The notes beneath the pieces are model-generated. The model did not search any database and was not told where the DNA came from. It saw only the letters and a program-made list of their open reading frames with translations. This document shows positions 18,781 through 36,795 of a DNA stretch of 41,813 nucleotides, piece by piece. The translations under genes and the position numbers were made by a program. Numbering within the stretch: the stretch's first letter is position 1; every line of letters begins with the position of its first letter. The DNA is from a bacterium (GTDB lineage Bacteria; Zhuqueibacterota; QNDG01; JABMRT01): assembly GCA_016931355.1 (NCBI GenBank), contig JAFGEX010000343.1, positions 1-41,813 of the forward strand. The letters run 5' to 3'.

Positions 18781-19190
18781 GATGCTCCAATCCCGGGGTG
18801 GGCCCCGGGGATCCGCTTGAAAACAAATCATGGATCCCGGGTTTTGATGCTTTCTGGTACTTTATGCATGGAGGAATCCTGTCTGGTGCACCGAATCACA
18901 GTTTTCCCGGGCACCCGGGATGACATTTCCTGGGATTCTTCAACCCCGGGGTTGACCCGGGAGATCGGGGTTGCACTCAGGAATCTTCGGGTGGATTCCC
19001 GATAAAAGATTTCTGGAATGACAGCAGGGTGATGCTCCCACCCCGGGGTGGACCCCGGGGTCTGTTCGACTCTGGATCCCGGATTTTGAGGTTCGCAGTC
19101 TCCTGGGGCATCAATGAATCATGACCGGAGCACAGAATCCACAAATCCGGCAGACCCGGGATGATTCTCCAACCCCGGGGTGCATCTTCC
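18781..19190. repeat. Duplicated GC-palindrome-rich intergenic unit
   Basis: Two diverged direct copies lie about 240-250 bases apart. GATGCTCC followed by a CCCCGGGG-rich pair starts at 18781 and 19031; TGGATCCCGG(G/A)TTTTGA occurs at 18831 and 19073; TTCT(T/C)CAACCCCGGGG occurs at 18937 and 19165. The units are rich in CCCGGG/CCCCGGGG palindromes and encode no credible protein. It differs in sequence from the dispersed 115-bp repeat. Confidence 0.7.
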
Positions 19191-19252: not shown

Positions 19253-19307
19253 TCTTAAACGTTTTCGCTAACGATTAAGGAGGACGGGAAATGCCCCTTA
19301 AACGTTT
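19253..19307 (+). promoter_or_regulatory. Two LacI-like half-palindromes flanking the operon start
   Basis: The palindrome AAACGTTT, both times as part of CTTAAACGTTT, occurs at 19257-19264 and again at 19300-19307, the second inside the first codons of the barrel gene. The 43-base spacing is about four helical turns. LacI-family operators are typically palindromes centred on CG, so these are candidate operators, perhaps for the LacI-family regulator encoded at 26833. Confidence 0.45.
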
Positions 19308-19959
19308 GATTATTGGATTATTAGTCTGTATCCTGATCCCTGTTGAGTCATTCGGAAAATCCTGGACCTTCATTACAGGTGGCAGCTATGCGCAGAAATT
19401 TGGAGCGCAGAGCCAATACTGGAATGCAGGATTCAGCGCCGGCATATCCGGATTTCACCGTTTTTCCGATATCTGGTCCGCGGGACTGCGGCTGGGTTAC
19501 TGCCGCTGGACCCCGGACGGCTACAGGATGATGGACCTCGCCCCGCCGATACGCATGAAGGCCATTTACACGGTGCGCGTGGACGGAGTCGATTCCCTGG
19601 ATTATGACAATCTCTATCTGTTCGACAGCAAGTCCGGCGGTACAACGGTGCTGGAATTCGTTCCATCCGTCCGGTTCAAGGCGCTGAAGGATGCGGGCGA
19701 AACGCTGGCGCTGTCCGGGCAGGTTGGAGCCGGGCTTTTTATGATCCGCTCGGACGCCAGGGCGGTTGGAAGATACGGCCCGAATGTGGCGGAAGTCCGG
19801 CTGGATGAGGTGTCCGAGGTCAAACCGGGGATTCAACTGGGAATTTCCCTCGTGGTCAGGAAGCAGCTCGAATTCATGCCTCTGTGGACCTTTGTCTTCA
19901 CAGAATCGAATAGAAGATCCTATTTTCTGATGAACCTCGGATTCCTGTTTGAACTGTGA
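19291..19959 (+). CDS. Small outer-membrane beta-barrel protein
   Basis: 222 residues with signal peptide MPLKRLIIGLLVCILIPVESFGK and a strong AAGGAGG site 7 bases upstream of the ATG. The mature chain is a run of amphipathic strands (SWTFITGGSYAQKFGA, NAGFSAGISGFHRF, SAGLRLGYCRW, LALSGQVGAGLFMI, PGIQLGISLVVRKQLEFMPLW) and ends MNLGFLFEL, compatible with an eight- to ten-stranded barrel. No specific family is recognised. It opens a four-gene plus-strand group with a TonB-receptor-like protein, a secreted FlgD-tail protein and a PorV-like barrel, so it is likely part of the same surface system. Confidence 0.75.
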   Translation: MPLKRLIIGLLVCILIPVESFGKSWTFITGGSYAQKFGAQSQYWNAGFSAGISGFHRFSDIWSAGLRLGYCRWTPDGYRMMDLAPPIRMKAIYTVRVDGVDSLDYDNLYLFDSKSGGTTVLEFVPSVRFKALKDAGETLALSGQVGAGLFMIRSDARAVGRYGPNVAEVRLDEVSEVKPGIQLGISLVVRKQLEFMPLWTFVFTESNRRSYFLMNLGFLFEL

Positions 19960-20032
19960 TCCCGGCGCGGTCCGCTGCCGCGGCTTCCGCAGCAGCGCTT
20001 CAACCCGTTGGATGATTGGGAGACAAAAAGCC

Positions 20033-23000
20033 ATGAGTCGTTTCATCAATCGGATCGCAATGAGATGGGCCGTACTTCTGTTGGCCGCATGCCCGCTGTG
20101 GGCTCCCCGTTCGTTCTGCGCTACAACCGGCAAGATAGCCGGCCGGGTGACGGACGCCCAGACCGGGGATCCCCTGTCCGGGGCGAATGTGCTGGTTGTG
20201 GGGACAGCCCTGGGTGCGGCCTGCGACGGGGACGGGCGCTATTTCATCATCAATGTTCCGCCCGGCGTTTACGATATCCGCGTGAGCATGATGGGGTATG
20301 CGACCCTGACGAAAACCGGTGTCGAAGTGATGGTCAACCGGACCCAGGACATCCACTTCAACCTCAATCCCGCTGTGCTGGAGGGGCAGGAAGTGATTGT
20401 CGTGGCCGAGCGTCCGCTGGTGGAAATGGACGTGACCGGCAGCGAGATGGTGGTCAACGCCGCGGCCCTGGCGCGCACCCCCATCACGGAGATGGAGGAC
20501 GTGGTCCGGCAGCAGAGGGGCATTTTTTACACCGGGACGGTCACCTACATCCGGGGCGGCATCGGGAGCGAGGTTGCCTACAACATGGACGGCAATTCCA
20601 TGACCGGAGGCGTCCTGAGTGACAGCTGGAAGGGCATCAACACCACGGCCATACAGGAAGTATCCGTGATGACCGGAGGCTACAACGCGGAGTACGGAAA
20701 CGCCATGTCCGGCGTGGTCAATGTGGTGACCAAGGAGGCCAGGAGCGACCGGATCAACCTCAGCGGGACGCTCAAGTACAGGTACAGGCCGGCCGGCCAG
20801 TACCATTGGGGCCGGAACATGTTCGATCAAACGCTGAAAAAATACACGGATTTCGACCTGGCCTACTGGGAGAGCACGCTCGCGAAAAGGCCGGAAATGG
20901 GCGCCAACTATTTCAGGAGCTACTACGGCTGGCCGGAGGGCCGTACGCCGACCGTGGAGGAAGTGCATCAGGCCTTCCTGCATCAGGCGGACGGCAACAA
21001 AATACTGACGGATTACGTCAACCGGCCTGACCAGGAAGTGGAGGGAACCTTTTTCGGCTCTTTCGCCAGGAACACGAATTTCCTCCTTTCCGGAAATTAC
21101 AAGAAGGCCGTTTCGATCTATCCGACCCTCGAACCCTATCAGCCGGAATACAACGTGCAGGCCAAGTTCAACTGGCTCATATCCCCCAGCATCAAGCTGT
21201 CCTACAACCTGGTCAGCGGCTGGTACAAGAACTCGGCGTTCCGGCCGGACAACACGGCTACCAGCAGGGAGATGGGAACGGCCGGCGGCGGGGCTGTGCC
21301 GAACTGGATGCTCGATCCCTACATGGGGGGCGGTTACTGGTCCATGTGGGGCTCCACGTACGGCAGGGGCACGACCCGGTACAACATCGGCGTGCACACC
21401 TTGAAGTGGCAGCACACGCTGAGCCCTTCCACTTTTTACACCCTGAACCTGAATGTTTACCGGGACAGGATGTATATCATTCCGGACTATTCGCACGAGC
21501 GGCTTCCGGCTGCCAAGATCGACGAAAGCTGGGGCTGGCAGTCCCTCAACAACGCATTCAGCCTCGGCGGCGGGAGCCCCTATCCGTCCAATGTCCTGCG
21601 CTCCCAAAGCCTGTCTTTCGGCGGAGACCTCACCAGCCAGTTGCACAGGGCCCATCAGATCAAGAGCGGCGCGGTTCTCAAGCTGAACGACATGGATTAT
21701 GAGAGCATCGACGTGGCCCATTCCGGGATAGACAACTGCATTGTCACGACCAACATCTGGAAGGGGAGCCCGCTGGAAACGGCGTTCTACCTGCAGGACA
21801 AGATCGAATATTCCGGAATCACGCTGAACCTGGGCGTCCGCGTGGACGGATTCGACACGCGGCGGAAATTCCCGGAAAACCCGGTTTTCGATCCTCTCGG
21901 ACAGACCGCCGCATCGGGCTCGGACGGCCAGATGCCCACCAACAGCGCGGACCTGTGGTTCCTGAACCGCGATCTTCCGGATTACGCCCATTTTTACACG
22001 TATGACTCGCTCATGGCCGGCCTGGACCAGGCGGGCCTTTCCCGGGACGCCTGGATCCCCTCCATGCTGAGGGACCGCAACACGCTTTCCTCTGAATGGA
22101 AATGGGCGATTGCTCCCCGGATCGGAGTGTCCTTCCCGGTCACAGCCAGCTCGAAGATCCGGTTCAGCTACGGGCATTTCTATCAGAGGCCTGCCTGGAC
22201 CAAATTCTACGGCGCGCCGTTCCAGTTCACGCTTCCCTACAATAAAAAGACGCCGGATCCCCTGGCGGACGCGGCCGTGATTTTCCAGACGATTCATCCC
22301 GTGGGGGGCATGTACTGGGGCCAGCCTGGACTCACCTTTGAGAAGGCCATCCAATATGAATTCGGGTACGACCAGGATATTTTCGATGTCGTGCGACTCA
22401 ATTTGACCGCCTATTACAAGGACCAGACCCGCCTGACCCGGTTTTCGAACCGGCCCCTGCTGGATTACGGACAGGCGCATCAATTCGCTGCAGGCGGGGG
22501 CATCTCCCAGACCGGATTCGCGGGTGAGGACATCGCCATGGAGGTTGTGCCGGATCTCCAGAGGATGGGAAGCGGTTATGTGTACCTGTTCGCCAACGAC
22601 ATGTACAAGGATACGCGCGGCCTGGAATTAAACGTGGAGCGTCTTTTCAACAACCGCTGGTCCGCCTCCGTGACCTTCGACTACGGGTTGAGCTCCGGCG
22701 CCAAGTACGGATTCCAGTCCCTGAGCGCAAATCCGGAGGTCCAGTCCCTCATGGCGTTCGCGAACCAGGACGGCGAAACCAAGCTTCGCTGGCTCAGCAG
22801 TTACAAGCTCAAGGCCAATTTCAGCCTGGTCACGCCGAAAAAATTCCTGATCGCAATGGGGGACCTTTCCCTGGGATTGTACTACGAGTATTTCGCCGGA
22901 GACCAGTATACCTATTATGCAGTCGATTATACGGGCGTCCGGTATCCGGACAACAGGCGCTGGTACCCCCATCAGCGGACGGATCTGAAGATCAGCAAAC

Positions 23001-23224
23001 GGATCAAGTTCCGGGACATGAACACGGTATTGGGAGTCGACGTGATCAATTTGTTCAACAACTACGACCGTTATCTGCTCTCCGGCCAGGATCTGCAGAA
23101 CTGGGAGGAACAGGAGCAGATCCCCCTGCTCACACAAAGCGGGGAACCGCATGTCTGGCATTTTTACAGTTCCCTGTCCAATCCCAAACGGATGTTCTAT
23201 TTCACGGTCGCATTGGAATTTTAA
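20033..23224 (+). CDS. TonB-dependent-receptor-like outer-membrane protein
   Basis: The ATG at 20033 begins signal sequence MSRFINRIAMRWAVLLLAACPLWAPRSFCA (1063 residues). Residues about 35-115 form a CarboxypepD_reg-like beta-sandwich (GKIAGRVTDAQTGDPLSGANVLV ... PPGVYDIRVSMMGYAT). Residues about 120-230 form a plug domain (VAERPLVEMDVTGSEMV, YIRGGIGSEVAYNMDGNSMTGG, EVSVMTGGYNAEYGNAMSGVVNVVTKE). The rest is a large barrel ending RMFYFTVALEF. This architecture is common in FCB bacteria, where such proteins import or display large substrates; SusC is a relative. No SusD-like gene follows. The substrate is unknown; the co-encoded secreted and PorV-like proteins suggest a surface complex. Confidence 0.9.
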   Translation: MSRFINRIAMRWAVLLLAACPLWAPRSFCATTGKIAGRVTDAQTGDPLSGANVLVVGTALGAACDGDGRYFIINVPPGVYDIRVSMMGYATLTKTGVEVMVNRTQDIHFNLNPAVLEGQEVIVVAERPLVEMDVTGSEMVVNAAALARTPITEMEDVVRQQRGIFYTGTVTYIRGGIGSEVAYNMDGNSMTGGVLSDSWKGINTTAIQEVSVMTGGYNAEYGNAMSGVVNVVTKEARSDRINLSGTLKYRYRPAGQYHWGRNMFDQTLKKYTDFDLAYWESTLAKRPEMGANYFRSYYGWPEGRTPTVEEVHQAFLHQADGNKILTDYVNRPDQEVEGTFFGSFARNTNFLLSGNYKKAVSIYPTLEPYQPEYNVQAKFNWLISPSIKLSYNLVSGWYKNSAFRPDNTATSREMGTAGGGAVPNWMLDPYMGGGYWSMWGSTYGRGTTRYNIGVHTLKWQHTLSPSTFYTLNLNVYRDRMYIIPDYSHERLPAAKIDESWGWQSLNNAFSLGGGSPYPSNVLRSQSLSFGGDLTSQLHRAHQIKSGAVLKLNDMDYESIDVAHSGIDNCIVTTNIWKGSPLETAFYLQDKIEYSGITLNLGVRVDGFDTRRKFPENPVFDPLGQTAASGSDGQMPTNSADLWFLNRDLPDYAHFYTYDSLMAGLDQAGLSRDAWIPSMLRDRNTLSSEWKWAIAPRIGVSFPVTASSKIRFSYGHFYQRPAWTKFYGAPFQFTLPYNKKTPDPLADAAVIFQTIHPVGGMYWGQPGLTFEKAIQYEFGYDQDIFDVVRLNLTAYYKDQTRLTRFSNRPLLDYGQAHQFAAGGGISQTGFAGEDIAMEVVPDLQRMGSGYVYLFANDMYKDTRGLELNVERLFNNRWSASVTFDYGLSSGAKYGFQSLSANPEVQSLMAFANQDGETKLRWLSSYKLKANFSLVTPKKFLIAMGDLSLGLYYEYFAGDQYTYYAVDYTGVRYPDNRRWYPHQRTDLKISKRIKFRDMNTVLGVDVINLFNNYDRYLLSGQDLQNWEEQEQIPLLTQSGEPHVWHFYSSLSNPKRMFYFTVALEF

Positions 23225-23396
23225 CGCCGGATCGCCGCCGGTGATGCGGATTTGGGAGGCCTTGGTCCTTGAGGGAAAAGGGATAATGGCAGGCATATTC
23301 TGGAATCCGGCGCGCTTGGTTTCGGGCCGAACGGCATGTTCGAGCATTTTGACCAAACTGCAGGCCCAGCCTCAGGCAGAAAGCAAGGAGAGGTCC

Positions 23397-25541
23397 ATGA
23401 CGGATTTTAATTCCAAAAGACGACGGATCAGCGGAATCCTGCTGGTTATGATTGTCATGAGCGGATTCCACGCCTATTCCCAAACCCAGTTCCAGACGTT
23501 CGTACGTCTGAACCGGGGCCGGATGTGGTACGATCTCTTCAGCTACGGCGGTCACGGCGACCGGCTGCCCAATGACCGGTATTCCAGGCTGGACTATCCC
23601 GGATGCGCCTTTACGGCTGCGCGCCAGGTTTACAATCCCCTGATTCCCGAATACCCGGGGATGGACGGCTACATGTTCGCAGGGGAGGTCAACGACAGCC
23701 TGGTGCTGTACCGGATTCCCTTCAGGTCCGAATGGTTCAGGCCCCATGAAATTCTGGAGAAGAAAAAGGTGACGCTCAAGAACAATCTCAATCTTTCCAA
23801 GGAAGGGCCTGAACAGTCCGCGTCCGGAAGCGTTTTCCTGGTGTACTACGGCCTCGAAATGAGCTGGACCGCCATGGTCTGGAGCGCGGAGAAGTACGAC
23901 GATTTCATCATCTGGGAATACACCTTCTCCAATCCGGACACAGGCGCCTCAATCACCGGTTTCCGCTTCGCCCGCGCCTGCGAGATCAGCATCGGGTGCA
24001 ACACCGTGGACAACGCCTCCAGGCGCAGCAATACGGAAGACGATTACTTCGAGTGGGATCCGGCCCGGCAGCTCTTCTATTTCCGCGACGGCATCCAGCT
24101 CGATCCGTCCACGAACCAGCCCGTGGAACAGCCCTACGGATGGACCGGAAACGACCAGGGCGAGCCGTCGGATTACGAACACCCCGCTTCCATCACGCAT
24201 GATTTCAAGGCACCGCAGTATCTGACGTTCGCCTGGCTCTCACGGTCCAAGGAACCGGGCGAGCCCGATCACATGAACTGCACGGCCCGGTGGTTCTGGC
24301 CCCAGCCGCCCAACGAGGATGAAGGGACCTTCTGGTGGTTTCAGAGCGGGACGGACGACCCGTACATGCTGTCTCTGACCTATGACGAGCACCCGCCCCT
24401 GATCCGCGAGGAGGGGACGCCGATGCCAGCGGATTCCGTGCGGAACACGCCCCGGGCGAGGCGTTTTATCGACTGCTACCCCCTGTACATTTTCGAAACC
24501 GGGCCCTATGACATTGCCCCTGGAGAGAAGCTGAAGCTTGTCCTGGCCACGGTCGGCGGGCACATGGAATGGGAACGCGTGGCCAACTTGGTGAACAATG
24601 AGGATGACGCGCAGGAAAACGCCCGGCATCTGATAGACGGCAGGGCGCATCTGTTCGCGAACCTCGATGCGGCCAGGGAGCTGATGCAGAACCAGTACAG
24701 CTGTCCCTGCCCGCCGCCGACTCCGACTGCCATGGACAAGACCTACGATCTCAAAAAACCGGAAACAGTGGGCAACAATTCCCTGCTGGTCACGCCCCTG
24801 GTGAATGCGTGCAAGGTCCAGTGGTACCCCATCCCGACAGGGTACAAGGACAGGGATTACGCGATCAACGACGTGGCCGGCTACCGGATATACCGGTCCA
24901 GGTTTGATTGCTTCGGACCCTGGGAGCGCGTTCTGGAGATACCGGCCGATTCCGCGGACGCTTATCTGGATGCGGCAGAGGGGATGGAATCCGATTCGAT
25001 GATGACCTTTGTGGACGCGGATCTGGATCCCTCCAGGCCCCTCCATTACGTGGTCACGGCTTTTGACACGGGGCATGACGCGCCCTGGAAGCTGGACCGG
25101 ACAGGCGTATACGCCACGCTGCCCTCCCTGGAGAGCGCGAAGAACAATTTCAACGTGGTCCCGGTGTTCGCCCTGGGCCCGGCGGACAACGAAAATTTCC
25201 GGAACACGCTCCGCGTCTATCCGAATCCTTTCAAGCTGCACAGCCAGATACCCAACGAGCAATGGAAGCTGGATTTCGTGAATGTCCCCTCCCAATGCAC
25301 GATACGGATCTACACCCTGGCCGGGGACCTGGTCAATGTGCTGGAGCACAATGAAATTTCAGGCGTGCACGAATGGGCCAGCACCCATCATGCCGAGCTC
25401 GGCGTGCTGGTCGCCAAGGGACAGATGCTCAACCGGAACTGGCAGCGCGTGGTCCCTGGCATCTACATCTTCCATGTGGAGTCCCATGCGCCGGGGCACG
25501 AGGGAGAGAGCAAGATCGGAAAATTCGTGGTGATTCGTTAG
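23397..25541 (+). CDS. Large secreted protein with FlgD/T9SS-like C-terminal domain
   Basis: The ATG at 23397 (AAGGAG 7 bases upstream) gives 714 residues; the longer track start overlaps the receptor gene. After a signal peptide (ISGILLVMIVMSGFHAYSQ) comes a large region without known family, rich in Trp, Tyr and Asp (VFLVYYGLEMSWTAMVWSAEKYDDFIIWEYTFSNP). Then a fibronectin-III-like stretch (VAGYRIYRSRFDCFGPWERVLEI ... HYVVTAFDTG). The last 100 residues are a FlgD-Ig/type-IX-like sorting domain: LRVYPNPFK, CTIRIYTLAGDLVNVLEH, GVHEWAS and PGIYIFHVES. Such tails target proteins for type IX secretion or surface attachment in FCB bacteria. A PorV-like gene follows after 14 bases. Confidence 0.85.
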   Translation: MTDFNSKRRRISGILLVMIVMSGFHAYSQTQFQTFVRLNRGRMWYDLFSYGGHGDRLPNDRYSRLDYPGCAFTAARQVYNPLIPEYPGMDGYMFAGEVNDSLVLYRIPFRSEWFRPHEILEKKKVTLKNNLNLSKEGPEQSASGSVFLVYYGLEMSWTAMVWSAEKYDDFIIWEYTFSNPDTGASITGFRFARACEISIGCNTVDNASRRSNTEDDYFEWDPARQLFYFRDGIQLDPSTNQPVEQPYGWTGNDQGEPSDYEHPASITHDFKAPQYLTFAWLSRSKEPGEPDHMNCTARWFWPQPPNEDEGTFWWFQSGTDDPYMLSLTYDEHPPLIREEGTPMPADSVRNTPRARRFIDCYPLYIFETGPYDIAPGEKLKLVLATVGGHMEWERVANLVNNEDDAQENARHLIDGRAHLFANLDAARELMQNQYSCPCPPPTPTAMDKTYDLKKPETVGNNSLLVTPLVNACKVQWYPIPTGYKDRDYAINDVAGYRIYRSRFDCFGPWERVLEIPADSADAYLDAAEGMESDSMMTFVDADLDPSRPLHYVVTAFDTGHDAPWKLDRTGVYATLPSLESAKNNFNVVPVFALGPADNENFRNTLRVYPNPFKLHSQIPNEQWKLDFVNVPSQCTIRIYTLAGDLVNVLEHNEISGVHEWASTHHAELGVLVAKGQMLNRNWQRVVPGIYIFHVESHAPGHEGESKIGKFVVIR

Positions 25542-25555
25542 AGGAGAGCGGAAGC

Positions 25556-26572
25556 ATGACCCCCAAAATGCTTGTGCAGGCCGCGATGGCCGTCTGGATC
25601 GGAATCGCGGCGGGACACGCCCAGAACAGTAATTATGATTTCTCCCGGCTGGACCCGGTTTCTTTTTCCAGGGCGGGCTTGAGCGGGTGGCAGTTTCTCC
25701 ACCTCCCCGCGTCCGCGCGCAGCGCGGCCCTGGCAAACATCAAATGCGGCATGCTGGACAGCGACGCATCCGCTGTGTTTACGAATCCTTCGCGGCTGAC
25801 GGAAATCCGCAGCATCAGCGCCTCATTCACCCGGATCCGGTACATCGCGGACATCGGGTACATGACCGCTTCCGTGGCCAAAAATTTCGGGGCATGGGGG
25901 GTTTTCGGGATCTCCTTCGCCGGGCTGGACGCAGGGGAAATGATCCGGACCGAAAACCTTGTTTCAGGCGGCCGGAGCGGGGATCTGGGTACTTTCACGG
26001 CCGGGGACATCCTGCTGGGTGTCACCTATGCACGCCGCGTGACGGACCGGCTTTCCATCGGCGGGAACATCAACTATATCGAGGAGAATCTGGACGATGT
26101 GAAGGCCAGGAACTGGGATCTGGATTTCGGAGTAAGTTTTCAGACAGGCTTTCGCGGACTGCGCTTCGACCTCCTCACACGGAATTTCGGTCCGGACGTC
26201 CGTTTCGTGGGATTCACGGAGCAGTACCAGAACCCCGCGGACGTGCGCATGCCGCTGGATTTTTTCATGGGGATCGGAATGGATTTGGCGGGTGGCGGGG
26301 ATGCTGACAAACATACGCTGACTGGGTACCTGGAGGCCGGCCATCCGAACGACACGCCGGAAAGGCTGCATGCGGCCATGGAATACCGGTTTCGTGAATT
26401 TTTCAGCCTGCGGGGCGGATACAAATTCTTCTATGACGAGGCCGGCCTGACCCTCGGCTGCGGCCTTCAATATTATATTTCCGGAATCGAAGGAAGAATC
26501 GATTACGCATTCATGGATTACGGCCGCCTGAACTCGGTTCACCTGTTCACCCTCGGATTAAACATTCGATAA
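25556..26572 (+). CDS. PorV/PorQ-like outer-membrane barrel
   Basis: The ATG at 25556 has GAGGAGAG upstream, follows the previous stop by 14 bases and yields 338 residues with signal peptide MTPKMLVQAAMAVWIGIAAGHAQ. The segment FLHLPASARSAALANIKCGMLDSDASAVFTNPSRLTEI is the recognisable N-terminal signature of the PorV/PorQ (UPF0164-like) barrels. It is followed by repeated strands and a final VHLFTLGLNIR. PorV shuttles type IX cargo to the attachment complex in Bacteroidota, and paralogues in other FCB phyla lie next to FlgD-tail proteins, as here. The adjacent FlgD-tailed protein is the obvious candidate cargo. Core type IX genes are not in this window. Confidence 0.85.
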   Translation: MTPKMLVQAAMAVWIGIAAGHAQNSNYDFSRLDPVSFSRAGLSGWQFLHLPASARSAALANIKCGMLDSDASAVFTNPSRLTEIRSISASFTRIRYIADIGYMTASVAKNFGAWGVFGISFAGLDAGEMIRTENLVSGGRSGDLGTFTAGDILLGVTYARRVTDRLSIGGNINYIEENLDDVKARNWDLDFGVSFQTGFRGLRFDLLTRNFGPDVRFVGFTEQYQNPADVRMPLDFFMGIGMDLAGGGDADKHTLTGYLEAGHPNDTPERLHAAMEYRFREFFSLRGGYKFFYDEAGLTLGCGLQYYISGIEGRIDYAFMDYGRLNSVHLFTLGLNIR

Positions 26573-26832: not shown

Positions 26833-27846
26833 ATGAGAAGCAAAAAGGTGACTCTCAAAATGATCGCCGAGCAGCTCGGCATGACGCCCGCCACCATTTC
26901 CAAGGCCCTGCGGGACAGCACGGACATATCGGAGGAAACGAAGCGGCGCGTCAAGGAAGTTGCGGACAATCTGGGATATCATCCCAATCTCATGGCGCGC
27001 AGCCTGGTTCAGAGGAGAAGCTATCTGCTCGGCGTGATGGTGCCCGATCTGCGCATTTCCTTTTTTTCGGAAGCGGTCCGGGGCATTTACGAAAGAGCCC
27101 GCGAAAAAGGATACGAGGCCATTATTGTGGTCAACGACGAGGATCTCGAGAACGAGGAGCGGAACCTCAAATTCCTGGCCGCCCTGCCCGTGGACGGGAT
27201 CCTCATCAATGCAGTCCCTGCCACGACCAACTGCAGGCTCATGCAGCGCATGCGGGACCAGGGCATCCCGTTCGTGAGCTGGGACAGGACCATCGACGGA
27301 TTCGATACGAGCTCTGTGACCATAGACGACGAGGCTGCAGCTTTTGAAGTCATGGAATATTTTGTGAAAAACGGCCGAAGGGACATCCTGTTCCTGGGAC
27401 CCACGGACCACCCTTCAGTCGTACGCGGCAGATACAACGGCTTCTGCAAAGGCAGGAACCTATTCGGCATCCCGGAAAGAGCGGACCGCGTCGCGACCTG
27501 CAAAATTGATTATGAGGCTGCCCGGGACACGATGCAGCGCGTTCTGGAGTCGGGCATCCGGCCGGATGCCGTGCTCTGCGTCGGCGGCCTGATCGCCCAC
27601 GGAGCGGGCAGGGCCATTCTGGACGCCGGGCTCAGGATACCGCAGGACATCCTGCTGGCGGAGTTCGGGGACAACGACGTGGTGGCCAGGCTCGGGGTAC
27701 CCTTCGTCACCATCCATCAATTCCCGCTCGAAATCGGACGCAGGGCAGTGGACATCCTGCTCGAGGAGATTGATCTCAAGCCGCGGCCGCATGCGTATCA
27801 TCATGAGATCATCCCGGCAAAACTGCTGGAGCGAACCCTGGGCTGA
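26833..27846 (+). CDS. LacI-family transcriptional regulator
   Basis: 337 residues. The N-terminal helix-turn-helix is VTLKMIAEQLGMTPATISKALRDSTDISEETKRRVKEVADNLGY, followed by the hinge helix HPNLMARSLVQRRS. Residues 60-337 are a periplasmic-binding-protein-like sugar-sensing domain (LLGVMVPDLRISFFSEAVRGI, VDGILINAV, VTIDDEAAAFEVMEYF, PDAVLCVGG, VTIHQFPLEIGRRAVDILL). AAAGGA lies 7 bases ahead of the ATG. It follows the envelope operon and precedes an MFS transporter, so it may regulate either; the AAACGTTT palindromes before the envelope operon are candidate targets. The ligand is not deducible but is probably a sugar. Confidence 0.92.
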   Translation: MRSKKVTLKMIAEQLGMTPATISKALRDSTDISEETKRRVKEVADNLGYHPNLMARSLVQRRSYLLGVMVPDLRISFFSEAVRGIYERAREKGYEAIIVVNDEDLENEERNLKFLAALPVDGILINAVPATTNCRLMQRMRDQGIPFVSWDRTIDGFDTSSVTIDDEAAAFEVMEYFVKNGRRDILFLGPTDHPSVVRGRYNGFCKGRNLFGIPERADRVATCKIDYEAARDTMQRVLESGIRPDAVLCVGGLIAHGAGRAILDAGLRIPQDILLAEFGDNDVVARLGVPFVTIHQFPLEIGRRAVDILLEEIDLKPRPHAYHHEIIPAKLLERTLG

Positions 27847-28291: not shown

Positions 28292-29473
28292 ATGTCCATG
28301 CCTGCCAAGCGGGCCATCCGAATCAATTATTTCTTTTTCGCATTCGCCATGGGGGGCGCATTCCCCTACCTGGCTCCGTATTTCAAGGAAAATCTCGGCG
28401 TCACCGATTATACGCTGGGCCTGCTGCTCATGCTGAGGCCTGCAGTGGCCATTCTGTCCCAGCCTTTCTGGAGCTATTTCGCGGACAGGCACGGCCACAG
28501 GGCGCGCATAGCGGCCGGCCTGGCCGTGGCGGCCGGCGTTCTGTTCCCGCTCGTCTGGTTGGCCAGACCCATGGGCCTGTTGGTACTGGCCATCATGGCC
28601 TTTGCCTTCTTCAATGCCCCGCTCAACACGCTTGCAGACAGCCTGACCTTCGACTATCTCGGCCATCACAAGCGGATGCGTTTCGCCAATTTCCGCATTT
28701 TTGCATCGCTCGGTTTCGTCACAGCCGTGGCACTGATCGGCAAGGTGTACGACCGGTTCGGCATCCATTGGCTGTTCGCCGCGTATTCGATCAGCACCCT
28801 GATCGCGGTCTTTTTTCTCCTGAAAATCCCCTCCAACGGCAATTCGAGACCCTCCAGCTCCGGATGGAAAGAACTCGTGCTCCTGCTGCGGAAGCGGAAC
28901 GTGCTGCTCTTCCTGATATCCGTGCTGCTTGTCGAGACGGCAAACCAGATGTCCCACGCCTATCTGAGCGTGTACGGCAAGGCGCTGGGCGCCAATAATG
29001 CGCAGGCCGGATGGATCTGGGCTGTGGCGACACTGGCGGAAATGGTGACCATGTACCATTTCTCGAAGATAGCGGGTCGGCACGGCATCTGGAACATCCT
29101 TGCCGTGGGCATGGGAACCGCCATCCTCCGCTGGACGCTTTTCGCGTTCATGCGCGTCTGGTGGCAGCTTATCCCGCTGCAGCTCATGCATATCTTCACA
29201 TTGACCTTCGTGTATGTCGGATCCGCCATTTTTATGGATCTGGAAAGCCCGGCCTCGATACGCTTCACGGCCCAGGCCTTTTACAGCACATTCGTGCTCA
29301 ACGCCGGCATGATCATCGGCAGCATCGCGGGCGGAGCCATCGCGCATCGCTGGGGCTATTCGTCGATTTTCCTGTTTTCCGGGGGATTGTCGCTGATCGG
29401 CACCCTGGTCTTCATCCTGTTCGTCAAACCGCCGCAGGCCCATGAATCCCACGGGCAACCGGTTCAGGCATGA
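28292..29473 (+). CDS. MFS transporter (MFS_1-like, sugar/nucleoside type)
   Basis: 393 residues with about twelve hydrophobic segments, starting INYFFFAFAMGGAFPYLAPYF. The loop after helix 2 holds FWSYFADRHGHRAR, the major-facilitator signature, and the second half repeats it at MVTMYHFSKIAGRHG. The short N terminus and overall pattern fit the MFS_1-like group that includes LacY-type and nucleoside permeases. It likely imports a sugar across the inner membrane. The LacI regulator 445 bases upstream and the pentose operon convergent downstream make a carbohydrate substrate plausible, but both links are inferred. Start region is AGGTAGG...ATG; a slightly later ATG (MPAKRA) is possible. Confidence 0.88.
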   Translation: MSMPAKRAIRINYFFFAFAMGGAFPYLAPYFKENLGVTDYTLGLLLMLRPAVAILSQPFWSYFADRHGHRARIAAGLAVAAGVLFPLVWLARPMGLLVLAIMAFAFFNAPLNTLADSLTFDYLGHHKRMRFANFRIFASLGFVTAVALIGKVYDRFGIHWLFAAYSISTLIAVFFLLKIPSNGNSRPSSSGWKELVLLLRKRNVLLFLISVLLVETANQMSHAYLSVYGKALGANNAQAGWIWAVATLAEMVTMYHFSKIAGRHGIWNILAVGMGTAILRWTLFAFMRVWWQLIPLQLMHIFTLTFVYVGSAIFMDLESPASIRFTAQAFYSTFVLNAGMIIGSIAGGAIAHRWGYSSIFLFSGGLSLIGTLVFILFVKPPQAHESHGQPVQA

Positions 29474-31616: not shown

Positions 31617-33101
31617 TCAGCCGGCGAACGGATTCTCAGTCGGGTAATACGTCCCCTTCGGCAGGTTGAAGGAAATGTCCGGTACGCCGAGCGCCTTCAT
31701 GACTTCGAAAATGGATTTGCCCGCATGCCGGAACGCGACCGCCGTGTGATGCGGGAAGCGTTTTTCGATCAGCACATGGCGGTAGAAACGTCCCATTTCC
31801 CGCACCGCGAAGATGCCGATCCCGCCGAAGGATTTGGGATCCAGGTCCAGAACCTCCGCCTCCGCGATATAACCCTTGAGCTGCGTGTCCGCAGTGGACT
31901 GGATGCGGAATATCGTGGCTTCGCCCGGCCGGATCCGGCCTTCGAGCGTGCCGCGCGTGATGTCCGGATTCTTCCCCGGCTCCATGAGCCGGTGCATGAT
32001 GAGCTGGTATTTCATCTCGATGTTCGCCATGCATGAGGCGGGCGTATTCCCGCAGTGGAACCCCATGAACAGGTCGGTCGGCTTGTAGTCCCCCACGGTT
32101 TTCCTGCCCGCCTCGATCAGGTCATAGGGCACCGTATTGTTGATGTCCAGTAAAGTGGCGGGCATTTCCGTGACGCAGCCGGCCACATATTCGCTGAGCA
32201 CGCCGTATATGTCCACTTCGCAGGAAACGGGTATGCCGCGGCCGGCCAGCCTGGAATTCACGTAGCAGGGCACGAATCCGAAGTATTTCTCGAAAGACGG
32301 CCAGCATTTGTTTGCGAAAACGCCGTATTCTGAGGCGCCGAGATTTTTTTCCATGAAATGGAGCAGTGCCACCTCGTGCTGGGCCAGCTTTTTCAGAATG
32401 TCCGGATGCTTGTTCCCGACACCGAGTTCCTTTGCCATGTCCTTTGCAACAGCCTCGATTTCCGCGCTGTCCTTTGCGGACAGGAAGGCATCGTACAGAT
32501 CCAGTTCGCTGTTCTCCATGATTTCGACGCCCAGGTCGTAGAGCGCCTTGACGGGCGCATTGCAGGCGAGGAAATCCTGCGGCCTGGGACCGAACGAAAA
32601 AATCTTCAGCCTGCGCAGGCCCAGCAGGGCGCGTGCAACAGGCATGAAATCCGCGATCATGCCAGCGATTTCATCCGGCGTTCCGACCGGATACTCCGGG
32701 ATGTAGGGGCGCAGCTTCCTGAGCCCGATGTTGTAGGAGGCGTTCAGCATGCCGCAATAGGCATCCCCGCGGCCTCCGACCAGGTCCTTCCCCGTCTCCT
32801 CCGCAGCAGCCGCGAACATGACCGGGCCGCCGAATTTCTGCGCCAGCAGGGTTTCAGGGCCTTCGGGCCCGAAATTCCCCAGATAAACGAGCAGGGCGTT
32901 GACGCCTTCCTTCTCGATTTCCTTCAATGCCTTGAGCGCATCCGCTTCGTTTTCAACCGTTGTCTTGAGCTCTGTGACAGGGATTTTCTTCGCCTTGCAT
33001 GCTGCGGCGACAAGGGAGCGCCGCTTCTGGGAAAGCTCGATGGGGAAGCAGTCCCGGCTGACCGCCGTGATTCCCATGCGAACCTGGGGGACATTGTTCA
33101 T
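31617..33101 (-). CDS. L-fucose/L-arabinose isomerase-family protein
   Basis: 494 residues of the FucI/AraA-like isomerase superfamily (COG2407). Recognisable segments include ALLVYLGNFGPEGPETLLAQKFGGPVMFAAA, GRGDAYCGMLNASYNIGLRKL, LRRLKIFSFGPRPQDFLACN, VSCEVDIYGVLSEYVAGCVT and LFMGFHCGNTPASC. The last supplies the histidine expected among the metal ligands with the E and D of CEVDIYG. These Mn-dependent enzymes interconvert aldoses and ketoses. Between ribulokinase and ribulose-5-phosphate epimerase genes it most likely converts L-arabinose to L-ribulose, replacing classical AraA. L-fucose or D-arabinose are alternatives. AGGAGA lies 7 bases ahead of the ATG. Confidence 0.87.
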   Translation of the reverse strand: MNNVPQVRMGITAVSRDCFPIELSQKRRSLVAAACKAKKIPVTELKTTVENEADALKALKEIEKEGVNALLVYLGNFGPEGPETLLAQKFGGPVMFAAAAEETGKDLVGGRGDAYCGMLNASYNIGLRKLRPYIPEYPVGTPDEIAGMIADFMPVARALLGLRRLKIFSFGPRPQDFLACNAPVKALYDLGVEIMENSELDLYDAFLSAKDSAEIEAVAKDMAKELGVGNKHPDILKKLAQHEVALLHFMEKNLGASEYGVFANKCWPSFEKYFGFVPCYVNSRLAGRGIPVSCEVDIYGVLSEYVAGCVTEMPATLLDINNTVPYDLIEAGRKTVGDYKPTDLFMGFHCGNTPASCMANIEMKYQLIMHRLMEPGKNPDITRGTLEGRIRPGEATIFRIQSTADTQLKGYIAEAEVLDLDPKSFGGIGIFAVREMGRFYRHVLIEKRFPHHTAVAFRHAGKSIFEVMKALGVPDISFNLPKGTYYPTENPFAG

Positions 33102-33294
33102 GTGTATTCTCCTGTTTTTTTAATCTCTAAGGGTAAAATTCGCCTCCTGGGGGTCATTGTGTTTTGGATTTTCGCTTGATACCCCACTGCCTGCAGCGGA
33201 GCGGTTCATGCGATGCGTGTATCATTCCCCGCTTCCCGGGGCTGATGATGTTTCCGGTTTTCTTTTACTGCCCCGCTTCCTGCTGCAGGGGCAA

Positions 33295-33993
33295 TCATTT
33301 TTTCTGCCCGTAGGTTGCGTCCCTGCCGTGCTTGCGCAGATAATGTTTGTCGATCAGGGACTTGTTCAGCCGCGGTGCGCCGGGACGGATCTCGAGGGTC
33401 ATCCAGGCCATGCGGGCGATCTCCTCCAGCATGACGCTGTTATAGACCGCCTTTTCGGCCGTGGCCCCCCATGTGAATGGGCCGTGGCCCGCGACCAGCG
33501 CCATCTCGATTTCGCGGCAGGTTCTTCCGGCCAGGGCCTTCACGATCGCCAGTCCGGTCTCCTCCTCATAATCGCCCTTGACCGATCTGTTTGTCAGGGG
33601 CCTGGTGCAGGGGATGTCGAATGCGAGATGGTCCGCATGCGTGGTCCCGAGAATAGGTATGGGCAGGCCGGCCTGGGCCCACGCAACAGCGCAACCCGAA
33701 TGCGTGTGGCAAACGCCCCCGATTTCCGGGAAATGCCTGTACAGCACAGCATGGGTTTTTGTGTCCGACGACGGCCTGAGCTTTCCCTCCACAATCCGGT
33801 TTTCCAGATCCACGACGACCATATCGGAGGGCTTGAGCGCATCGTAGGGGATCCCGCTCGGCTTGATGGCGAACACGGCCCTGTCCCGGTCCGCAGCGCT
33901 GACATTCCCGAAAGAATACCGGACCAGGCCCTGCACCGGGAGGTCCATGTTGGCTTCCCAGGCGATGCGCTTCAACTCGCGGAAACGGTTCAT
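33295..33993 (-). CDS. araD: L-ribulose-5-phosphate 4-epimerase
   Basis: The ATG at 33993 overlaps the araB stop (ATGA), giving 232 residues. The class II aldolase/AraD fold is clear: LVRYSFGNVSAADRD, FAIKPSGIPYDALKPSDMVVVDL, SDTKTHAVLYRHFPEIGGVCHTHSGCAVAWAQAG (zinc-binding His pair), GTTHADHLAFDIP and LVAGHGPFTWGATAEKAV. It converts L-ribulose-5-phosphate to D-xylulose-5-phosphate, feeding the pentose phosphate pathway. Overlap with araB indicates translational coupling and a common L-arabinose (L-ribulose) route. An isomerase gene follows after 193 bases. Confidence 0.94.
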   Translation of the reverse strand: MNRFRELKRIAWEANMDLPVQGLVRYSFGNVSAADRDRAVFAIKPSGIPYDALKPSDMVVVDLENRIVEGKLRPSSDTKTHAVLYRHFPEIGGVCHTHSGCAVAWAQAGLPIPILGTTHADHLAFDIPCTRPLTNRSVKGDYEEETGLAIVKALAGRTCREIEMALVAGHGPFTWGATAEKAVYNSVMLEEIARMAWMTLEIRPGAPRLNKSLIDKHYLRKHGRDATYGQKK

Positions 33994-35660
33994 GGGGTGA
34001 ATTCCTTTTCGACCCATGTACTGAGCCTGGAATAGCGCTCGTAAAGCGCCATGTATTTCTTGCGGCTGGATGCATCCGGCTTGTAGGTTTTTTCGAATCC
34101 GTTTCCCATGGCCTTTTGGGCGGACGGGATGTCCTTGTATATCCCGGCCGCAACTGCTGCGAACATGGCGGCGCCGAGAGCAGTGGCCTGCTCCAGGCGC
34201 GCGACCTGAATCGGCATATCCAGAACATCCGCCACCACCTGCATGACATAGGGCGCCTTTTTGGGAATGCCCCCGATGGCGATGACCCCCTGGATGGGTA
34301 TGCCTTCCTCCGTGAAACGGTCCACGATTTTCCTGGCGCCGAATGCCGTGGATTCCACAAGCGCCTTGAATACGCGCGGCGCATCCGATCCCAGATTCAT
34401 GGATGCGATCGCGCCCTTCAGCATCTGATTGGCGTAGGGTGTGCGCCTTCCGTTGAACCAGTCCAGGGCCACGATCCCGGTCTCATCCGGCGGGATCTGG
34501 GCAGCCGCCTTGGAAAGGGCCGGGATAACTGCCGAGGAGATCTGCCTGTAAAGCTCCTCTGAGTCCTTGAACGGGGAGGTCTGCATGAGCAGGTTGTCAA
34601 TGGGCCACAGGATCAATTTTTTGAACCAGGCATATACGTCTCCGAAGGCGGATTGTCCGGCTTCCATCCCGAGCATGCCCGGTATGATGGAACCGTCCAC
34701 CTGCCCGCAAATGCCCTTGATGAGCTTATCCCCGATTTCCTTGTTCGGAGCCACCAGCATGTCGCAGGTGGATGTGCCCATGGCCTTGCACAGGATGTAG
34801 GGCTTGATTTCCCCCCCGACCGCTCCCATGTGCGCGTCAAAAGCCCCCACACTGACCGGGATGCCTTCCGGGAGGCCCAGCCTGCCCGCCCATTCCGCGG
34901 AAAGGCCCCCGAATACAGCGTCCGATGTATAGGTTTCGCTGAACAGCCTCTGCCTCAGGCCCTGAAGCGCAGGATCCAGCCGGGTCAGGAAAGCCTCTGA
35001 GGGGAGCCCGCCCCAGGAGGGATGCCACATGGCCTTGTGTCCAGCTGCGCAGCGGCTGCGCTTGAGGGTCAGGGGATCTGCGAGCCCGGTCAGAAGGGCG
35101 GGGATCCAGTCGCAATGTTCCACCCAGGAGAAGGCGGCCTCCCGCACCTTTCTGTCTTTTCTCAGCGTATTGAGGATTTTCGCCCAGAACCATTCAGAGG
35201 AGTACACGCCGCCCTCGAACCGGGTAAAATCCCCTTCCGGCCATGTCCCGGCCAGCGCATTGATCTCCTCCGCCTCCCGCACAGCCGTATGATCCTTCCA
35301 CAGGATGAACATGGCGTTCGGATTGTTCTTGAATTCCTCCAGCAGCGCAAGCGGAGTTCCGCTCTTGTCCACAGCCACGGGCGTGGACCCGGTCGTGTCC
35401 ACGGCTATGCCCGCCACGCTTTCCGCAACGCCCTTGGGGCATTTGGATAGGGCTTCCCGGACCGCTGCTTCGAGGGATTCGATGTAGTCCAGCGGATGCT
35501 GGCGGAACTGGTTGGCGTTCGGATCGCAGTACCGGCCCTCCGACCAGCGCCTGTAATGGGAAACGGCATTGGCGGTTTCCTCGCCGTTGCGGGCGTTCAC
35601 CACGACCGCGCGTACGGAATCCGTGCCGTAATCCATGCCGATGACGAATGGATCTTTCAT
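33990..35660 (-). CDS. araB: Ribulokinase
   Basis: 556 residues of the FGGY kinase family with AraB-specific length and motifs: IGMDYGTDSVRAVVVNARNG at the N terminus, IAVDTTGSTPVAVDK, MFILWKDHTAVREAEEIN, GAFDAHMGAVGG (catalytic Asp region), CKAMGTSTCDML (phosphate-binding) and VIAIGGIPKKAPYVMQVVADVL (adenosine). It phosphorylates L-ribulose with ATP. GGGGAAG precedes the ATG. The gene follows the LacI-type regulator by 103 bases on the same strand and overlaps araD by 4 bases, so all are probably read from the promoter at 36835-36863. Confidence 0.94.
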   Translation of the reverse strand: MKDPFVIGMDYGTDSVRAVVVNARNGEETANAVSHYRRWSEGRYCDPNANQFRQHPLDYIESLEAAVREALSKCPKGVAESVAGIAVDTTGSTPVAVDKSGTPLALLEEFKNNPNAMFILWKDHTAVREAEEINALAGTWPEGDFTRFEGGVYSSEWFWAKILNTLRKDRKVREAAFSWVEHCDWIPALLTGLADPLTLKRSRCAAGHKAMWHPSWGGLPSEAFLTRLDPALQGLRQRLFSETYTSDAVFGGLSAEWAGRLGLPEGIPVSVGAFDAHMGAVGGEIKPYILCKAMGTSTCDMLVAPNKEIGDKLIKGICGQVDGSIIPGMLGMEAGQSAFGDVYAWFKKLILWPIDNLLMQTSPFKDSEELYRQISSAVIPALSKAAAQIPPDETGIVALDWFNGRRTPYANQMLKGAIASMNLGSDAPRVFKALVESTAFGARKIVDRFTEEGIPIQGVIAIGGIPKKAPYVMQVVADVLDMPIQVARLEQATALGAAMFAAVAAGIYKDIPSAQKAMGNGFEKTYKPDASSRKKYMALYERYSRLSTWVEKEFTP

Positions 35661-35763
35661 GTCTTCCCCGTTTTAATCTCTATGGATCAAATGACCCGCC
35701 CTTCGGGGCGCGTCCTGTTTCCCTCGTTTTTGGGCACGCCGCTGCTTGCGGCGGGATCGTTCA

Positions 35764-36795
35764 TTATTGATAATAATCGATATTCTCCCGGGTCAGGATG
35801 TCCAGCGGCATCATGATGCGGCTTTCCACCTTCTCCCGGAAGAGAAGATGCCTGCACAGGCAGTCGATGCTCCGGTATCCCTGGAGGTCCGGTTTCTGGC
35901 TGATCAGAAAGTCGATGGATCCCTCCCTGAGCAGCCGGACGTTCCGGGGTATCAGGTCGTATCCGATCAGGCGGAATTTCCGTTTTGATCGTATTTCCTG
36001 CAGGGCCCCGACAATGCGGTGCATGGAGGCGTCGGTTACGAATATCCCTTCCAGGTCCGGCAGGGATTCGATTTGGGATGCAAACCGCTTTGTAAACAGC
36101 GCGGGGCTTTCCTCGCCCTGCATGCTGATCGTGAAAACCGGCGCGATCCCGCAGTCCCGGTAATGGGAGAGGAAGCCGGCCGCGCGCCGGTCGATATGAT
36201 AATCCTCGGGAAGTACGCGCAGGACCGCCACATCCATTCCTTCACGGATGATGTTTTTCATGAGCGAGGCGGCCAGGACGCCCCCCTGGAAGGGATCCTG
36301 TCCGATGAAACTCAAGGGCTCGACCGTGGGGATGGATGAATCGATGAACACAAAGGCGAGGTCCTGCGGTAATTTCCGGATGAACCGTTCCGTGGCCCAT
36401 GGCAACACGGGCGCGATGACGAGGCCGTCCACCCTGTCCGCCAGAGCCTGCTTTCCGGCCTCCACGAAGGAGGCCTCCGAATACCGGTCGAAATGATAGG
36501 CCTGCGTGCGGATATGGTAGGATTGGAAATCCCTGCCTGCTTTTTCAATGCCCGCCATGGGGATTTCCCAGTATCCCCCGTCCTGCGCAGGCTCGGGCGT
36601 CAGGATGCCGAATGTGAACACACGGGTTCTTTTCAGGTTCTGGGCGAATGCATTGGGTTTGTATTTCATTTCCTCGATGATGAACCGGACTTTTTCCTCG
36701 GTCTCTTTGGACACGCGGCCGCGTTTATGAATGACGCGGTCCACTGTTCCGATGGAAACATGCGCTTTTTTTGCTATGTCTTTGATTGTCGTCAA
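35764..36795 (-). CDS. LacI-family regulator of the pentose operon
   Basis: 343 residues; initiation is at a TTG because the first codons (TTG ACG ACA ATC) begin the canonical helix-turn-helix TTIKDIAKKAHVSIGTVDRVIHKRGRVSKETEEKVRFIIEEMKYKPN. The ligand-binding domain (FTFGILTPEPAQDGGYWEIPMAGIEKAG, VDGLVIAPVLPW, FVFIDSSIPTVEPLSFIGQDPFQGGVLAASLM, EGIFVTDASMHRIVGALQEI) is sugar-sensing and resembles the LacI subgroup with periplasmic-binding-protein type sensors. It heads the araB-araD-isomerase-kinase group and its promoter carries an overlapping inverted repeat, so it is probably an autoregulated pentose repressor. There is no good ribosome-binding site ahead of the TTG. Confidence 0.9.
   Translation of the reverse strand: MTTIKDIAKKAHVSIGTVDRVIHKRGRVSKETEEKVRFIIEEMKYKPNAFAQNLKRTRVFTFGILTPEPAQDGGYWEIPMAGIEKAGRDFQSYHIRTQAYHFDRYSEASFVEAGKQALADRVDGLVIAPVLPWATERFIRKLPQDLAFVFIDSSIPTVEPLSFIGQDPFQGGVLAASLMKNIIREGMDVAVLRVLPEDYHIDRRAAGFLSHYRDCGIAPVFTISMQGEESPALFTKRFASQIESLPDLEGIFVTDASMHRIVGALQEIRSKRKFRLIGYDLIPRNVRLLREGSIDFLISQKPDLQGYRSIDCLCRHLLFREKVESRIMMPLDILTRENIDYYQ

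Follow-up and report, generated by a model that had tools for sequence, protein, structure and literature searches.

A recurrent three-gene module in a member of the Zhuqueibacterota: TonB-dependent receptor, sorting-tailed secreted protein and putative dedicated PorV/PorQ-like anchor

Why should a secreted protein with a sorting-like C-terminal domain be encoded between a TonB-dependent receptor and an outer-membrane barrel of the PorV family? The question is raised by a contig from a member of the Zhuqueibacterota (JAFGEX010000343.1, 41,813 nucleotides; this whole stretch of DNA is termed the window). A first-pass annotation, made from the sequence alone, had described an operon at 19291-26572 in which a TonB-receptor-like protein, a 714-residue secreted protein (SEC hereafter) and a PorV/PorQ-like barrel might form a cargo-specific surface complex. 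The features identified here are collected in Table 1. On the plus strand the order was a 222-aa protein, receptor, SEC and barrel, followed by a LacI regulator and an MFS transporter. The genes lay where the annotation had placed them, SEC being exactly 714 aa long, with 14 bases between the SEC stop and the barrel start. The 222-aa protein matched no Pfam or NCBIfam family and had no homologue at the other module loci examined. The conserved unit is therefore three genes, receptor, SEC and barrel, and a four-gene module that includes 19291-19959, as the annotated extent of the operon would have it, was rejected.

Upstream of the operon, the sequence TTAAACGTTTTCGCTAA is weakly predicted as a LacI-type operator. 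The prediction is suggestive only, and no such site preceded the receptor gene in the orthologues that were inspected. The non-coding stretch at 18790-19180 contained repeated motifs like CCCCGGGGTGGACCCCGGGGTC, possibly a dispersed repeat or a terminator-like element. No Rfam matches were found within the window.

Table 1. Features of the window and, in the last row, genes following the barrel at four other loci
Feature	Position	Strand	Basis and remarks
Weak LacI-type operator-like sequence TTAAACGTTTTCGCTAA (predicted)	19255..19271	+	Single site in window; imperfect palindrome
Small exported protein, 222 aa, barrel-like	19291..19959	+	First operon gene; no family match
TonB-dependent receptor, 1063 aa	20033..23224	+	Pfam: N-terminal CarboxypepD_reg and plug; conserved first module gene
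Secreted surface protein (SEC), 714 aa	23397..25541	+	Signal-peptide-like N-terminus; 15 paralogues in genome; orthologues 41-42% identical
SEC N-terminal beta-rich domain, residues ~91-389, supersandwich-like (tentative)	23667..24563	+	AlphaFold2 and Foldseek
SEC fibronectin-III-like domain, residues ~460-560	24774..25076	+	Profile match to FN3-like protein 3mpc, E 0.032; Foldseek FN3 matches
SEC C-terminal sorting/anchoring domain, seven strands, PorZ/PorU-like (predicted), ends KIGKFVVIR	25194..25538	+	Profiles and model
PorV/PorQ-family outer-membrane barrel, 338 aa, putative dedicated anchor	25556..26572	+	NF033709, AF2, Foldseek, profile
LacI-family regulator, likely local regulator	26833..27846	+	PF00356/PF00532
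MFS sugar/nucleoside-type transporter	28292..29473	+	PF12832, PF03825, PF01306
Lipoprotein-like genes after barrel	L062:582-1781, L063:6743-7927, L065:3055-4275, L068:3711-4892		

The receptor was identified by its CarbopepD_reg_2 (9.8e-19) and Plug (1.9e-7) domains in Pfam. Its score against the SusC/RagA model TIGR04056 was 69.5 bits, far below the cut-off of 368. Description of the receptor as lacking a SusD partner held for the whole host genome assembly, in which no SusD (PF07980) was found; among 59 relatives SusD was absent from 41, and no genome had more than two. SEC itself was considered as a SusD homologue and rejected, as it had no Pfam match and the genome is without SusD. The module nonetheless resembles SusCD systems in that a TonB-dependent receptor with an N-terminal CarboxypepD_reg domain is co-encoded with a surface partner, in many copies and in a sugar-type context. 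It differs in the receptor, which falls far under the SusC/RagA cut-off, and in the partner, which is a protein with a type IX secretion system (T9SS) tail and its own barrel rather than a lipoprotein. In four modules a lipoprotein-like gene of ~400 aa lay directly 3' of the barrel. The N-terminus of these proteins read ..CEYD or CEYE after a hydrophobic stretch, and a TIG domain was found in the two tested; the gene is possibly a fourth, SusE-like surface component.

The module is not confined to the window. A search of the host genome (3.9 Mb, 412 contigs, 84% complete) with SEC recovered 15 paralogues, sharing mainly the last ~110 residues, and thus 16 modules in all. PorV-family genes were found independently, and one lay just 3' of each SEC paralogue. 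In 16/16 modules a PorV-family gene followed the SEC gene in the same orientation, against 1/149 for other cargo genes recognized by TIGR04183 (Fisher p 2.5e-21); two of 150 such tails preceded a PorV-family gene, one being itself a module member, which leaves 1/149 as ordinary cargo. Because of this difference, the arrangement of SEC and barrel is not due to chance. The barrel immediately adjoined SEC in 14 modules, and one or two small genes intervened in the other two (C229, C42). A receptor was present upstream in 10 of the 16, the remaining six reaching a contig end; one of these six, C228, retained only a C-terminal receptor-like fragment. Gene calling therefore gave the order receptor-SEC-barrel wherever the contig permitted it.

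Co-occurrence of the three genes elsewhere, which the first-pass annotation had proposed as a test, was borne out in relatives and in named genomes of several lineages. SEC-like matches (E<1e-12) were obtained in 35/59 relatives, including full-length orthologues of the window SEC. Across 20 regions from these relatives, the barrel adjoined 21/22 SEC genes and the receptor 18/22. A scan of named genomes, based on close SEC orthologues, returned 29 loci in records labelled KSB1, Calditrichota, Neomarinimicrobiota, Rhodothermales/Rhodothermaceae and a few other labels; a few of these loci are identical to loci counted among the relatives. Here the barrel adjoined 26 of 29 module-tailed SEC genes, and the receptor 25 of the 28 that could be evaluated. 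The tail profile detected 6 to 31 copies in each of 18 named genomes, and when 30 loci were chosen from these by tail score alone, the barrel was again adjacent in 25/28 evaluable cases. The module was also seen in L141, L143 and L155, records labelled Planctomycetota, Caldisericaceae and Actinomycetota, which are probably mislabelled or mixed MAGs.

Exceptions to the adjacency were mostly tandem SEC arrays that apparently share one barrel (L135, L161, L162). In these loci and in G074:C154, two or three paralogous SEC genes stood in tandem with one barrel. The pairing is thus not strictly one to one, suggesting that a single barrel may serve several SEC partners.

Divergence within the modules of the host genome was compared by Mantel tests. 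Tail and barrel distances were correlated (r 0.84, p 5e-5, n=15 modules), as were those of receptor and barrel (r 0.81, p 1e-4, n=10), receptor and tail (r 0.83, n=10) and SEC body and barrel (r 0.89, n=10). This parallel divergence shows that the genes are inherited as a unit; by itself it is no proof of contact, as co-inheritance of an operon alone would produce the same pattern. The proposal of a cargo-specific surface complex is well supported genetically; a physical complex would be a further step.

The barrel scored 160 bits against the PorV family model NF033709 (cut-off 90), in agreement with the first-pass reading. Scores were well below the equivalog cut-offs for canonical PorV (NF033710, 42.7 bits, cut-off 250) and PorQ (NF033711, 103 bits, cut-off 220). 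Annotators have already named one PorV paralogue, NF052325 PorVQ2 ('putative type IX sorting system protein PorV2'), but module barrels C228 and C302 reached only 54-64 bits against its cut-off of 325. The AF2 model (pLDDT 82) had a FadL-type barrel fold, and its best Foldseek match was PorV in complex with a cargo tail (8gl6_F, E 1.9e-15, TM 0.70). As FadL, TodX and CymD were the next matches, and PorV belongs to the same fold family, the barrel could instead let a hydrophobic or small nutrient through, as a FadL-like channel that shares its regulation with the receptor and plays no part in holding SEC. We regard this as quite unlikely: PorV gave the best fold match and was alone in the PDB in matching the family profile strongly (6h3i, 5.7e-26), and barrel and tail occur together in genome after genome, their divergence running in parallel. 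Other PorV-family genes of the host also lay directly 3' of proteins with sorting-like tails: L076 (C412), L071 (C17), L075 (C6), L077 (C131) and L074 (C41). The protein preceding the C412 gene is PorU-like, with 1568 aa.

A T9SS core, the other test that the first-pass annotation had proposed, was looked for in the host genome. PorU (865 bits, cut-off 420) and a canonical PorV, the C334 gene (254 bits, cut-off 250), were both encoded, together with ~150 type A cargo genes (TIGR04183), a very large T9SS secretome in an organism probably outside Bacteroidota proper. The best SprA score in the host's 84%-complete assembly was 39.7 bits, and no full-length gene was found there. Of 13 genomes with modules in which SprA was tested, 12 scored above its cut-off, one of the 12 belonging to the same family; the exception was the host. 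At the level of the lineage this test, too, went in favour of the first-pass annotation. Host genes on C251 and C404 were rejected as SprA, because only a stretch of ~70 residues matched, and C251 has a Pfam Reg_prop match. For SprA, a PF14349 search gave no match in its controls. The type B tail model TIGR04131 likewise matched neither the host genome nor the controls. The canonical PorV gene (L070, C334) adjoins an M6-like inactivated metalloprotease homologue with a type A tail, which scored slightly below the cut-off of NF052323.

Does SEC carry the same tail as this ordinary cargo? The first-pass annotation had called the C-terminus both sorting-like and FlgD-like. The sorting-like domain stood, as a type A-like tail; the FlgD name was dropped, as no FlgD_ig match was found. 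In the model, residues 606-712 formed seven strands of an Ig-like fold ending in a basic motif, as in type A tails. SEC was not among the TIGR04183 matches of the host genome, and its match to Pfam Por_Secre_tail (PF18962) stayed below the cut-off of 27 bits (12.7 bits, E 0.17). In profile-profile comparison, module tails and TIGR04183 tails were remotely related (97% probability). The signature of the module tails, VVPNPY...F..LP..CTIRIF...G.LV..I.H...G...W...GIYIYHVE..G..KIGKFAIIK, is unlike that of ordinary cargo tails of the host, QNYPNPFNP...TRKMILMK. By sequence comparison, the module tails form a type A-like class of their own, separate from ordinary cargo tails.

The nearest structures to this class were PorZ and PorU, though at weak E-values. 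A profile of 15 module tails (A1) matched only PorZ 5m11 (1.8e-5) and PorU 6za2 (0.0035) in the PDB at E<0.1. The same two proteins were the top PDB matches (PorZ 0.0057, PorU 0.0075) of a profile made from different sequences, 12 tails of other genomes (A9). A profile of ordinary host tails (A8) instead matched EndoI, gingipain, an ice-binding protein and FlgD, not PorZ or PorU; EndoI and gingipain are cleaved or released cargo. As a caution, the tails of some ordinary cargo scored at least as well against the module-tail profile as did host PorU. Among T9SS proteins, PorZ and PorU are the two whose tails are known to stay in place, held by PorQ and PorV respectively (PMC5562754, PMC10202324). 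It is mainly because the tail class is closest to these two that an anchoring role of the barrel is favoured over that of a simple delivery shuttle, the role suggested by the first-pass annotation.

SEC could alternatively be ordinary type A cargo, handled by canonical PorV (C334) and PorU, cleaved and then either released or lipid-linked, with the adjacent barrel only adding shuttle capacity. Both proteins are encoded in the host, and the SEC tail retains the type A fold and terminal basic residues. Against this, a PorV-family neighbour was found for only 1/149 ordinary cargo genes, and the module tails formed a separate class matching the retained tails of PorZ and PorU. We therefore consider such conventional processing unlikely.

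The description of SEC as Trp-rich was only mildly justified (19/714, 2.7%), and no Pfam or NCBIfam model matched the N-terminal ~450 residues, consistent with the earlier remark that they belong to no recognizable family. Structure modelling with AlphaFold2, also suggested then, gave a low-confidence model (mean pLDDT 65, many loops <50), in which a large N-terminal beta domain was followed by a helical linker, an FN3-like domain and the seven-strand tail. Foldseek matched the model to GH149/GH94/GH116 enzymes (glycoside phosphorylases and GH116; E 3.9e-6), in addition to FN3 domains. Tentatively, the N-terminal half resembles the supersandwich domain and helical linker of glycoside phosphorylases, with the catalytic barrel missing. 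Sequence profiles of SEC did not confirm the supersandwich resemblance; if correct, it would suggest that SEC binds sugar.

A sugar context was also apparent in the neighbourhood. On the minus strand at 31617-36795, the window encodes a ribulokinase (L-ribulokinase, AraB), AraD (L-ribulose-5-phosphate 4-epimerase), a fucose-isomerase-type protein and a second LacI regulator, with a PfkB kinase just beside them. In orthologue neighbourhoods, PfkB kinases, RhaT- or ureide-permease-like transporters, ADP-ribosylglycohydrolase-type proteins and LacI regulators recurred, and in the C228 module a GH106 rhamnosidase gene lay 3' of the barrel. A pentose or riboside would be our guess for the ligand of the window module. 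Alternatively, the products of the modules might be adhesins, form a surface layer or act as a signalling receptor of the anti-sigma type, rather than take up nutrients. SEC proteins differ from one another and are of considerable size (about 660 to 1250 aa across the host genome and relatives), and the type B/SprF pairs of Flavobacterium are adhesins (PMC12618676). Such functions seem improbable, given that the first gene, which is conserved, encodes a TonB-dependent receptor and that sugar-catabolism or LacI genes recur close by.

Taken together, it is rather probable that the three genes form an uptake module similar to SusCD, in which SEC, exported by the T9SS, is kept uncleaved by its own PorV/PorQ-like barrel beside the TonB receptor. 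SEC would be exported by Sec and then pass through the T9SS translocon via its C-terminal domain, a route that is strongly indicated, as are the family assignments. Its tail would then be captured and retained by the adjacent barrel, instead of being cleaved by PorU, much as PorQ keeps PorZ and PorV keeps PorU. Anchored beside the co-encoded receptor, SEC may offer it a sugar-type ligand and so stand in for the lipoprotein SusD that serves SusC. Gene families, pairing, paralogy, gene order, parallel divergence and the T9SS genes (SprA only in relatives) are observed directly, whereas we infer that SEC stays uncleaved, that each barrel is specific to the SEC encoded beside it, that the receptor joins them in a complex, and what the ligand is.

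For the anchor, the closest precedents are PorZ-PorQ and PorU-PorV; for the genetics of a dedicated cargo-barrel pair, the closest is SprB-SprF. The first two share with the module a tailed secreted protein with a type A fold, whose unremoved tail is bound to a PorV/PorQ-family barrel (as the module tail would be; PMC5562754, PMC10202324). They occur once each per genome, as parts of the secretion machine, whereas the module exists in ~16 paralogous versions, and every pair has a secreted protein of its own and comes with a TonB receptor. Type B cargo and its PorP/SprF-like shuttles share the order of a cargo gene followed by its own barrel gene (PMC12618676, PMC9143113), with many paralogous pairs per genome and some sharing, but there tail and barrel come from other families (TIGR04131, PorP/SprF). 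Canonical PorV and its type A cargo (TIGR04183) have the barrel family and tail fold in common with the module, but a single PorV serves all such cargo, and the module barrels lie under the PorV/PorQ equivalog cut-offs.

In the current view, one PorV is common to type A tails and private barrels exist only for type B (PMC12618676). We give about an even chance to the broader proposal of another branch of type IX cargo handling, in which, in several FCB lineages, dozens of dedicated PorV/PorQ-like barrels hold type A-like tails permanently and each builds a TonB uptake complex independent of SusD. No paper in the literature searched tied PorV-family paralogues to TonB receptors. According to a 2023 review, how PorZ keeps its tail is unexplained, and protection by cognate PorV-like barrels was suggested (PMC10202324). 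The module family provides some 6-31 natural candidate tail-barrel pairs per genome for this idea. If the proposal is true, a protein delivered through T9SS takes the place of the lipoprotein that Sus systems have at the surface. The module family also suggests that uncultured FCB lineages poor in SusD capture nutrients at the surface by means of a T9SS-secreted partner protein.
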